Positions 45,129 through 48,044 of a stretch of 64,000 nt of DNA are shown in pieces (positions within the stretch are counted from its first letter, which is position 1; each line of letters opens with the position of its first letter). The translations under genes and the position numbers were made by a program. Under the pieces are notes generated by a model. The model was given only the letters and a program-made list of their open reading frames with translations, did not search any database and was not told the origin of the DNA. The DNA is from Azospirillum brasilense (GTDB taxonomy: Bacteria > Pseudomonadota > Alphaproteobacteria > Azospirillales > Azospirillaceae), in NCBI RefSeq assembly GCF_001315015.1, contig NZ_CP012914.1, forward strand, positions 1,612,001 through 1,676,000. Reading direction: 5' to 3'.

Positions 45129-45570
45129 CCTTCCTTTGAAACACCATATCGTCCTGATCGAAGCGCGCCGCCTGCGGTTTCCCGCCAGTGGATGGGCCTC
45201 CGATTCCCAAACGGTCAACACAGTTATCCCCATATCCTTTTTGCCGTAGGCAAAGGGATTGCGAAGCCTTTGGTTGCGGTACGACACTGACGATTTGCAG
45301 TGTATCCAATGGTTTCGCCTTGCGATGACCATGCCCAATTTGGGGGCATGACGGCAAGCTGTCGCCACTCCAACAGGCTTGAGGACTCATCCACAAAGTT
45401 ATCCACAGAAAATGGGGATAACCCGAAAGCGTCTGCGTGAGGCTGGGCTAAGGCGTTCTCATGCGCCACCGCCGTAACCATCTACCGCAAGGAACGGTCT
45501 CCGTGCCGGTGGCGTTTTACGGGGCGCTTGATCAATCCCACGCCGTTCGGCGTCAGTACGAGGTGATGTC
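45129..45570. other. Gene-free 442 bp with DnaA-box cluster
   Basis: No gene is supported. Three DnaA-box-like 9-mers cluster at 45387-45395 (TCATCCACA), 45399-45407 (a perfect TTATCCACA) and 45413-45421 (TTATCCCCA on the minus strand). A fourth, TTATCCCCA, is at 45224-45232. A short stem around the GCCGTAGGC motif near 45244 is also present. The stretch is AT-richer than its flanks. Confidence 0.6.
45387..45421. promoter_or_regulatory. Cluster of three DnaA-box-like sites
   Basis: One perfect TTATCCACA flanked by two one-mismatch 9-mers, at 12- and 14-bp centre spacing, the last in opposite orientation. DnaA boxes occur in replication origins and in DnaA titration or reactivation sites. Which applies here is unknown. 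Confidence 0.55.
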
Positions 45571-45816
45571 TTGGTGGGTTGGGTCGTCAGAACGCTTCTG
45601 CTGTGCTTCGTGGTCGGATTGGTTCTGTCCTTTCTGGACATCAATCCGGCCAGCATCCTGACCAACAGCTGGGCCACCATCCAGGACATCGCCCGGCTCG
45701 CCGCGGACATGTTCCATTGGGCGCTGCCCTATATCCTGATCGGAGCGGTGATCGTCGTTCCGCTGTCCGTCATCGGAGCGGTCATGCGCTGGACCCGCAC
45801 GCGGCACCGCCCGTAA
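45571..45816 (+). CDS. Small membrane protein (DUF6460-like)
   Basis: An 81-residue protein with two hydrophobic segments (about residues 4-24 and 50-72) around a short polar loop with FLDINPASILTNSW. It resembles the alphaproteobacterial DUF6460 family of unknown function, as I recall it. The start is TTG with an AGGTGA element 5-10 nt upstream. A GTG one codon later is possible. It is followed by the tandem small-RNA region on the opposite strand. Confidence 0.75.
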   Translation: MVGWVVRTLLLCFVVGLVLSFLDINPASILTNSWATIQDIARLAADMFHWALPYILIGAVIVVPLSVIGAVMRWTRTRHRP

Positions 45817-45841
45817 CGCAATTCCAATCTCCCCCACCCGC

Positions 45842-45877
45842 AAAAGAAAAAACCGGAGATCCAGTGGATCTCCGGTT
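45842..45877 (-). terminator. Intrinsic terminator of sRNA copy 1
   Basis: On the minus strand a 12-bp perfect stem (45866-45877 with 45851-45862, 3-nt loop) runs directly into a T-rich tract (45842-45852, broken by one C). Confidence 0.85.
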
Positions 45878-45906
45878 AAGTGAATACAGGGAGGGTTAGA
45901 GACAAG
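45842..45906 (-). ncRNA. Candidate Fnr/FixK-controlled small RNA, copy 1
   Basis: A predicted transcript of about 65 nt on the minus strand. Its first 25 nt (45882-45906) are identical to those of copy 2 and contain a CCCUCCC anti-Shine-Dalgarno motif. A perfect 12-bp stem with a 3-nt loop (45851-45877) and a T-rich run form the 3' terminator. A -10-like TTAAAC lies about 7 nt upstream of the start, and an Fnr/FixK box is centred about 41 nt upstream. No open frame explains these features. Transcription is inferred. Confidence 0.6.
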
Positions 45907-45937
45907 GACTGTTTAACTGTTCAGACGCCCTGCTTCG

Positions 45938-45951
45938 TTGATCTGTATCAA
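45938..45951 (-). promoter_or_regulatory. Fnr/FixK box upstream of sRNA copy 1
   Basis: TTGATACAGATCAA on the minus strand, a perfect match to the TTGAT-N4-ATCAA Fnr/FixK/Anr consensus. TTAAAC begins exactly 21 nt past the box, which places the start about 41.5 nt from the box centre, as in class II Fnr promoters. Confidence 0.75.
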
Positions 45952-46003
45952 TCTGCGATAATTTTATCGATCCGCTGCAACCGGACCAGCTTTGACTTTG
46001 GAC

Positions 46004-46039
46004 AAAAAAATAGCCGAGGGTTCCATTGGAACCCCCGGC
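46004..46039 (-). terminator. Intrinsic terminator of sRNA copy 2
   Basis: On the minus strand a 12-bp stem with one mismatch (46028-46039 with 46013-46024) is followed by TA and a run of seven T residues. It may also catch read-through from hisI. Confidence 0.85.
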
Positions 46040-46070
46040 ATAGGCGAATACAGGGAGGGTTAGAGACAAG
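46004..46070 (-). ncRNA. Candidate Fnr/FixK-controlled small RNA, copy 2
   Basis: A predicted transcript of about 67 nt on the minus strand. It begins with the same 25 nt as copy 1 (46046-46070) and ends in a stem (46013-46039, 12-bp arms with one mismatch, 3-nt loop) plus seven T residues (46004-46010). Upstream lie a TAGAAA -10-like element and an Fnr-like box centred about 40 nt from the start. The hairpin sequence differs from copy 1, so the repeat is confined to the 5' segment. Transcription is inferred. Confidence 0.6.
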
Positions 46071-46101
46071 AGCTTTCTACCTCTTCCCGCCCCGGGCTAC
46101 G

Positions 46102-46115
46102 TTGACATAGATCAA
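46102..46115 (-). promoter_or_regulatory. Fnr/FixK-like box upstream of sRNA copy 2
   Basis: TTGATCTATGTCAA on the minus strand, one mismatch from TTGAT-N4-ATCAA. It lies just after the hisI stop and about 40 nt from the predicted start of copy 2. Confidence 0.7.
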
Positions 46116-46148
46116 ACACTTTTCGCATTGCAGCGAAGGTTTAGCGTC

Positions 46149-46583
46149 TTACTTATGCGTGTGTCCATAGAGAACCGAAGGATCGGTTTCAACGTCTTGA
46201 ATGATGGCGAGCTTCCCATCACGCAGCGCGCGGTAGAAGCAGCTGCGCCGTCCGGTGTGGCAGGCCACGCCGTCCTGTTCCACGATCACCAGCAGGGTGT
46301 CGCCGTCGCAATCGACGCGGAAATCCTTCAGCCGCTGCATCTGGCCGGAGGTTTCGCCCTTGCGCCACAACCCCTTGCGGGACCGCGACCAATAGCAGAC
46401 GCGCCCCGTGCGCAGCGTTTCCAGCACGGCCTCGCGGTTCATCCAGGCCATCATCAGGATCTCGCCGCTTCCTTCCGCCTGGGCGATGGCCGGGACCAGC
46501 CCGTCGGCGTTGAAGGCGATGGCGGCGATCACGTCATCGAACGAGGGCTCGATCGAGGCCCCGGGCGCGGTGGCGTCCGTCAT
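46149..46583 (-). CDS. hisI: Phosphoribosyl-AMP cyclohydrolase
   Basis: A 144-residue HisI that opens the purine ring of phosphoribosyl-AMP in the third step of histidine synthesis. The metal motif CDGDTLLV-region Asp residues, VACHTGRRSCF with the cysteine and histidine ligands, and the start GLVPAIAQ are all present. It has no HisE domain, so PR-ATP pyrophosphatase must be encoded elsewhere. No other his gene is adjacent. A HisC-like gene lies 6 kb away. Small-RNA terminators lie downstream. Confidence 0.96.
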   Translation of the reverse strand: MTDATAPGASIEPSFDDVIAAIAFNADGLVPAIAQAEGSGEILMMAWMNREAVLETLRTGRVCYWSRSRKGLWRKGETSGQMQRLKDFRVDCDGDTLLVIVEQDGVACHTGRRSCFYRALRDGKLAIIQDVETDPSVLYGHTHK

Positions 46584-47804: not shown

Positions 47805-48044
47805 GGGTCTTCCCGCAACAACAGTGATGGCGGTCGTATCCCGACATTCCAGGATGGACCCGGCCGCCAAAGATTCTTTTCCCTAAGCCTCTGTAAGGGA
47901 TAACCAAGCCAAATGCACGGCTTAAGGATGATTCGACAAGCCGGATGCTGTTGGTGCACTCTTGTCACACGCGCGTGTCCGCCATGCGGGACGCGCAATG
48001 CATGAACCTAAGCGTAAAAACGCAAGAACAGGGTGGAGCTTAAT

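Follow-up and report, generated by a model that had tools for sequence, protein, structure and literature searches.

Organization of the locus

The DNA analysed here is a 64-kb stretch of the Azospirillum brasilense genome (the window), and it carries two candidate small RNA (sRNA) units on the minus strand, at about 46067-46006 and 45903-45845, between hisI and a convergent DUF6460 gene. The upstream neighbour hisI (phosphoribosyl-AMP cyclohydrolase, Pfam PF01502; 46149..46583, minus strand) often lies beside the RNA in relatives too, as judged by synteny. The DUF6460 gene (Pfam PF20061; 45571..45816, plus strand) is transcribed towards the units. Both units follow the same order, that is, an Fnr-type palindrome, 34 nt, GTCTCTAACCCTCCCTGTATTC and an intrinsic terminator. 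Searching the whole window against Rfam at the gathering score retrieved four tRNAs and nothing else, and the locus itself (45500-46500) gave no match at E values up to 5.

The convergent downstream gene and the terminators that the units own, together with a 5′ segment and promoter that are conserved where, judged by eye, a reading frame is not, amount to the anatomy of a trans-acting sRNA. A 5′ segment followed by a hairpin does look like a leader, and the units might accordingly be attenuators of a gene behind them, or else small coding RNAs. We regard both as highly improbable, since the next gene downstream points the other way, every unit has a terminator of its own, and no start codon common to the aligned units could be seen by eye.

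Promoter architecture and start site

The two boxes, TTGATCTATGTCAA in unit 1 (46102..46115, minus strand) and TTGATACAGATCAA in unit 2 (45938..45951, minus strand), were located by pattern scan and by reading the sequence, exactly where the original prediction had put them. They are the sole occurrences of TTGATN4RTCAA in the 64-kb window. The box scan returned 3 rows (the palindromic one being counted on both strands) against a shuffle mean of 0.03, and none of 100 shuffles reached 3, which places the boxes beyond chance. Reading the sequence also bears out the predicted -10-like hexamers, TAGAAA in unit 1 (46074..46079, minus strand) and TAAACA in unit 2 (45910..45915, minus strand), both of which begin 22 nt past the box.

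We placed the starts at a conserved G, at 46067 and 45903, because strong conservation in relatives begins there; among 60 related units, the base before it is T (-1) in 52 and the base at -3 is C in 44. The distance from box to G is 34 nt in both units, giving a box centre of -41.5 if G is +1. The sequence thus suggests that transcription starts at 46067 and 45903 from a box in the class II position. The class II logic of the original prediction is retained, while its starts at 46070 and 45906, from which the box would be centred at about -38.5, are moved by 3 nt.

The same arrangement recurs in relatives. The 60 distinct units, derived from 63 loci among the matches listed, had been found without using the box, and all 60 have a box with at least 8 of 10 matches, its centre lying 41-43 nt upstream of the core; among base-shuffled upstream sequences, 90 of 12000 score as high. 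The -10-like hexamer is looser than the box, with at least 4 of 6 matches in 34 of the 60 units against 15% in shuffles. As the core served as the search key for these 60 units, its near-invariance among them is partly built in. Adding named records brought the set to 103 units; all have a box, though the box was part of that search pattern. The named hosts are, among others, Azospirillum brasilense, A. lipoferum, A. oryzae, A. cavernae, A. halopraeferens and two Skermanella species.

Structure of the RNA units

The two units share an identical 25-nt segment, CTTGTCTCTAACCCTCCCTGTATTC, and each ends in an intrinsic terminator of 12 pairs, both as predicted. With the start G set by conservation, and with folding, predicted RNA 1 is about 62 nt long (46006..46067, minus strand) and predicted RNA 2 about 59 nt (45845..45903, minus strand); the expectation of a short RNA therefore holds, with its figure of about 65 nt corrected to about 59-62 nt. 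The conserved 5′ seed delimited by pattern searches and alignment, GUCUCUAACCCUCCCUGU, occupies 46050..46067 of RNA 1, and an identical seed occupies 45886..45903 of RNA 2 (both minus strand). The terminator hairpins, at 46013..46039 and 45851..45877 (minus strand), are each followed by a U run, and are recognized by terminator scan, covariation and folding alike. The scan of the window gave 3 terminator sites, one nested inside another, whereas shuffled sequence averages 0.6. Folding leaves 26-28 unpaired nucleotides at the 5′ end followed by one hairpin, with z scores of -4.16 and -5.04. In an alignment of 49 units, compensatory changes occur at all 9 predicted terminator pairs; the number of cells broken or gapped reaches 14 of 49 at one of them.

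Allowing up to 3 mismatches in 24, a search of this genome found no copies besides these two. The description of the RNAs as twins is accurate for the pair seen here, but the pair is not a special case, as members of the family occur in one to four copies per genome.

Distribution of the family

Conservation of box, seed and terminator in related genomes had been proposed as a check of the original prediction, and pattern searches, a covariance model and the 49-unit alignment show that all three are kept. A 24-nt pattern allowing up to 3 mismatches matches 51 of the 82 host-family genomes. The 18-nt core with at most 1 mismatch is found in 53 of the 82, against 3 matches in 82 genomes for the reversed-pattern control, and in 3 of 385 genomes of a class-wide sample, all three from the host family.

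A first covariance model, built from the 49 units, found the family in 59 of 82 host-family genomes and in 11 of the 13 genera of that family. With E limited to 0.001 per genome, its matches in the class sample comprise 10 of 385 genomes: 3 belong to the host family and the other 7 to three further families. Three of these 7 have E values of 4.6e-4 to 9.5e-4, and because values of 5e-4 to 1e-3 apply to one genome while 385 were searched, the weakest of the 7 could include chance matches. Chance is less plausible for two of the three weak matches (L154 and L155), which lie directly behind hisI. A second model, to which divergent members were added, matched 7 of 17 genomes of one order, 4 of the 7 not used in building it, and 3 of 4 genomes of another order, all 3 used in building it. 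The first model gave no match in 23 of the 82 host-family genomes, and the second found nothing in these 23 either (0/23). G040 is among the first-model negatives; genus g10 has a match in 0 of 7 genomes and genus g11 in 2 of 11, and one negative belongs to the host's own genus.

Cores vary in some relatives (for example, GTCTCATACCCTTCCC and GTCTCCAAACCC), and the divergent members retain the box, GTCTC, a C-rich stretch and the terminator. The alignment of 49 units, 15 of which were found by the model and not by the core, is invariant at the box letters TTGA and TCA, at the 5′ TCTC, and at C, T, C and C of CCCTCCC. Judged from these sequences, an Fnr-type-controlled sRNA family almost certainly exists.

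The genomic neighbourhood is also shared. Of the 103 units, 73 have hisI on their own strand no more than 1.2 kb upstream, and among the 15 model-found loci that were fetched, 11 follow hisI directly. In a neighbour survey of 27 loci (25 distinct), hisI was directly upstream in 12, metC in 3 and neither in 10, three of the last group (L217, L219 and L222) having just about 1.5 kb of flank. This synteny, together with the kept features, makes shared descent a better account than chance similarity. The frequent position behind hisI could also be taken to mean that the units are tandem Fnr-regulated terminators or decoys, which tune read-through from hisI or titrate Fnr while the RNA itself is inert. 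We consider that very unlikely, since such elements have no need for a conserved 5′ segment beginning at the predicted start, and four loci (L067, L068, L070 and L071) keep the segment with no match to hisI, metC, aapJ, aapQ or DUF6460 in the stretch.

Two further arrangements were seen in the survey. In two Azospirillum genomes, G020 (L064, 5847-13860) and G045 (L066, 3861-13488), RNA copies in opposite orientation stand at both ends of a hisI-metC-aap-hisC block, which looks inverted relative to the window; recombination between the RNA copies may have flipped it. In a metagenome-assembled genome, a second copy (L070, 2404-2517) lies amid hydrogenase maturation-like genes (hypB, hypC and hypF by eye), another low-oxygen function.

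Pairing preference of the seed

The CCCUCCC of the shared segment had been proposed to act as an anti-Shine-Dalgarno (anti-SD) element. We analysed 375 heuristically picked open reading frames (ORFs) from the window and from 20 further 20-kb stretches of this genome, together about 7% of it. The mean pairing energy of the core is -11.24 kcal/mol with start regions versus -7.89 kcal/mol with gene interiors. None of 60 shuffled cores equalled the difference of -3.35, their mean being -2.02 with an sd of 0.53; a 16S rRNA tail gives -2.14 in the same comparison. The differences obtained with the shuffled cores and with the 16S tail indicate that part of the start-region preference is generic SD pairing. 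Still, it is quite likely, from sequence, that the seed pairs at ribosome sites.

How broadly it would do so is a separate question. A real Fnr-controlled sRNA could act widely as an anti-SD element on ABC-transporter and metabolic mRNAs, like NfeR1 or alphaR8, with the oxidase operon described below being nothing special. CCCUCCC suits many SD sequences (GGAG occurs in 161 and GGGAGG in 30 of the 375 start regions), and some of the transporter genes in the window likewise give good scores. However, the 5′ TCTC is invariant even in the 15 model-found units, which a general anti-SD element would not need, and a nearby ABC-transporter gene, aapJ, failed its control. Broad action thus appears unlikely, and the anti-SD proposal is retained in a narrower form: the core does prefer start regions, but the seed fits the aa3 oxidase operon better than general anti-SD action requires.

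The aapJ gene was rejected as a target. ACAGGG is present in 17 of 19 distinct aapJ upstream sequences near the RNA, but the control revealed no link to the sRNA: the motif is found upstream of aapJ in 12 of 23 sRNA-negative versus 6 of 19 sRNA-positive genomes, in 1 of 7 class controls (the eighth yielded no start) and in 1 of 10 second copies. The SD region of aapJ (48025-48044 in the window, and in orthologues) is nevertheless unusual and conserved, reading ACAGGG(TGGAG), whether the RNA is present or not.

The aa3 cytochrome c oxidase operon as predicted target

The best single site in the scanned sequence is the start of ctaD, which encodes subunit I of the aa3 cytochrome c oxidase (Pfam COX1). 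Here, GAGGGTTAGAGAC stands directly before the ATG and would form 13 perfect pairs with the first 13 nt of the RNA. Within 464 kb of this genome, that 13-mer occurs at ctaD and antisense to the two RNAs, and nowhere else. The ctaD energy alone (-25.5) is unexceptional: of 200 shuffled cores, 40 find a site at least as good somewhere. Among 380 ORFs, a set obtained with slightly looser gene picking than the 375, ctaD ranks 1, cox11 6, coxB 14, cox3 18 and ctaB 160. The real core places 4 operon genes in the top 20, while 200 shuffled cores place 0, 1 or 2 (110, 79 and 11 times, respectively). The operon was noticed as a target during the scan of about 7% of the genome and had not been predicted beforehand.

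A replicate was obtained in A. cavernae (G011), where the operon was located by synteny and carries AAAGGGTAGAGAC-ATG at ctaD and GGGGTTGAGAGACG-ATG at cox3. With the two cores of that species and 340 ORFs, ctaB ranks 2, ctaD 20, coxB 25 and cox3 28; cox11 is outside the 340-ORF list, its start not having been picked. Hypergeometric probabilities are 1.7e-5 (cut-off 18) for the window's genome and 3.7e-5 (cut-off 28) for A. cavernae, with both cut-offs chosen after the ranks were known. A cut-off-free rank test was therefore run, giving one-sided p values of 0.0010 and, for A. cavernae, 0.00096; shuffled cores were as extreme in 1 of 100 cases here and in 0 of 100 in A. cavernae. In A. cavernae, ctaB (heme o synthase; L291, 10868-10897) has a strong GGGGAGGG site, with a rank of 2 of 340, which is missing from the window's genome, where ctaB ranks 160; target sites within one operon have possibly turned over.

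Sites in ctaD were read in sRNA-positive relatives and in plasmid copies. By synteny, ctaD was found in G004, G008 and G011, and was not found in G010, G015, eight further genomes and another four. In the close relatives G004 and G008, it ranks 1 of 79 and 4 of 85, with cox11, coxB and cox3 also within the top 6; a T insertion breaks the ctaD match in G008. Seven plasmid ctaD genes of other alphaproteobacteria, taken without regard to whether their hosts carry the RNA, gave -5.3 to -14.3. For S. meliloti, taken on the same terms, the values are coxB -12.1, ctaB -9.5, ctaG -9.5 and cox3 -17.2, the last of which suggests that part of the cox3 match may predate the RNA. Plasmid copies in two Skermanella species gave ctaD -15.4 and coxB -9.8. 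Altogether, the complementarity makes the aa3 operon a probable main target.

Candidate regulators

There are 14 Crp/Fnr-type matches in the genome. Among those that were read, a subset obtained by crude recovery, one protein combines a CxxCx7C motif with an ETLSR recognition helix, as is expected of an iron-sulphur Fnr. Three others (L225, L235 and L236) have an ETVSR or ESLSR helix without the cysteine motif. The box consensus is shared by Fnr, FixK and DNR types and does not tell them apart, which, like the three proteins with an E-x-x-S-R helix, would allow a different member of the Crp/Fnr group to be in control, either a DNR-type protein that senses nitric oxide or one in a FixK cascade, in place of an iron-sulphur Fnr that responds to oxygen directly. 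We consider this less likely than not. We found no point against it; it is compatible with the main explanation, since targeting of the oxidase suits either signal.

Proposed mechanism

The conserved genes, the promoter architecture, the covarying terminator, the start-preferring seed and the operon-level complementarity in two species were computed here. In the mechanism that we propose, low oxygen would lead an Fnr-type activator, sitting in the class II position at -41.5, to start transcription from the conserved G. The product of either gene would be an RNA of about 60 nt with a single-stranded 5′ seed, followed by the terminator hairpin; the seed would pair with ribosome-binding sites and block translation. 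The best-supported target being the aa3 operon (coxB, ctaD, cox11 and cox3), low-affinity respiration would be turned off as oxygen falls. Production of the RNA, its induction by low oxygen and the repression of translation by pairing are steps that we infer. Taken as a whole, an Fnr-driven sRNA pair with a translation-blocking seed and the aa3 operon as its best target is an explanation we hold to be reasonably probable. The reading most likely from sequence is a low-oxygen sRNA repressing the aa3 oxidase, FnrS-like in action and without an Rfam match to FnrS.

Azospirillum fixes nitrogen at low oxygen, where it relies on a high-affinity oxidase. If the proposal is true, repression of the aerobic oxidase by a conserved RNA would give the low-oxygen switch a further, post-transcriptional level of control, and the sequence before ctaD is a named site for the proposed pairing. 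One seed matching several cistrons of a single operon would be an unusual targeting design. More tentatively, and with somewhat less confidence than doubt, the multi-copy family, spread over at least four alphaproteobacterial families, may be a dedicated respiratory oxygen switch, in which an Fnr-made RNA silences aa3 cistron by cistron while Fnr/FixK activates high-affinity respiration. The consulted part of an A. brasilense transcriptome paper reports increased cbb3 oxidase in cysts, where its authors presume oxygen to be scarce (PMC6159551). That rise fits a switch away from aa3 and is silent on this RNA.

Comparison with known systems

Among the matches listed, which were open-licence PMC papers, we recognized no prior description of this RNA. 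The main text of a study of A. brasilense Sp245 sRNAs contains neither 'hisI' nor 'oxygen', and its supplementary lists may hold the RNA as an unnamed entry (PMC7685610). The consulted part of a Magnetospirillum transcriptome paper has nothing on it (PMC9549626).

By sequence, the units have what is generally expected of a trans-acting sRNA, namely a promoter and a terminator of their own and a conserved unpaired seed. The CcsR/cuckoo RNAs of Rhodobacter, which are controlled by RpoH sigma factors, are multi-copy sRNAs with C-rich loops, and going by this description alone they resemble the family in both respects. Anti-SD seeds that act redundantly and silence mRNAs at the ribosome site are also a feature of the rhizobial alphar14/NfeR1 RNAs, which, in the portion of the source consulted, have three hairpins, each with CCUCCUCCC, are controlled by LsrB/NtrC and respond to nitrogen stress, not oxygen (PMC10746234). 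Membership in that group was rejected, as the RNA described here has one hairpin and one CCCUCCC.

The alphaR8 RNAs of Caulobacter (SisA-D) are likewise sibling sRNAs with a single-stranded, CCUCCCU-containing anti-SD core and a Rho-independent terminator. According to the consulted sections of their description, the core, UUUCCUCCCU, is internal and lies behind a weak hairpin, the family is mostly linked to FGase, and the promoters of the Caulobacter siblings are unrelated (PMC12559287). In contrast, the core here, UAACCCUCCCU, is 5′-terminal, at an unpaired end with no hairpin upstream, and all units examined have the same Fnr-type promoter. The immediate neighbours in the window, hisI and DUF6460, with hisI common in relatives, give no sign of an FGase linkage either; the RNA was therefore not assigned to alphaR8.

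FnrS has an Rfam family, to which the locus gave no match at E up to 5, so that homology is not indicated. As in FnrS, the sequence places an Fnr box at an activating position before an orphan short unit. The enterobacterial RNA is described, in the part of the source consulted, as anaerobic and as acting negatively on aerobic metabolism, and the likeness would extend from Fnr-type activation and predicted low-oxygen induction to the repression of aerobic metabolism by base pairing (PMC10993149). Unlike FnrS, the present RNA has one hairpin, about 60 nt, a seed at its extreme 5′ end, often at least two tandem copies, and the aa3 operon as its predicted target. By analogy, FnrS is the closest known system in logic.
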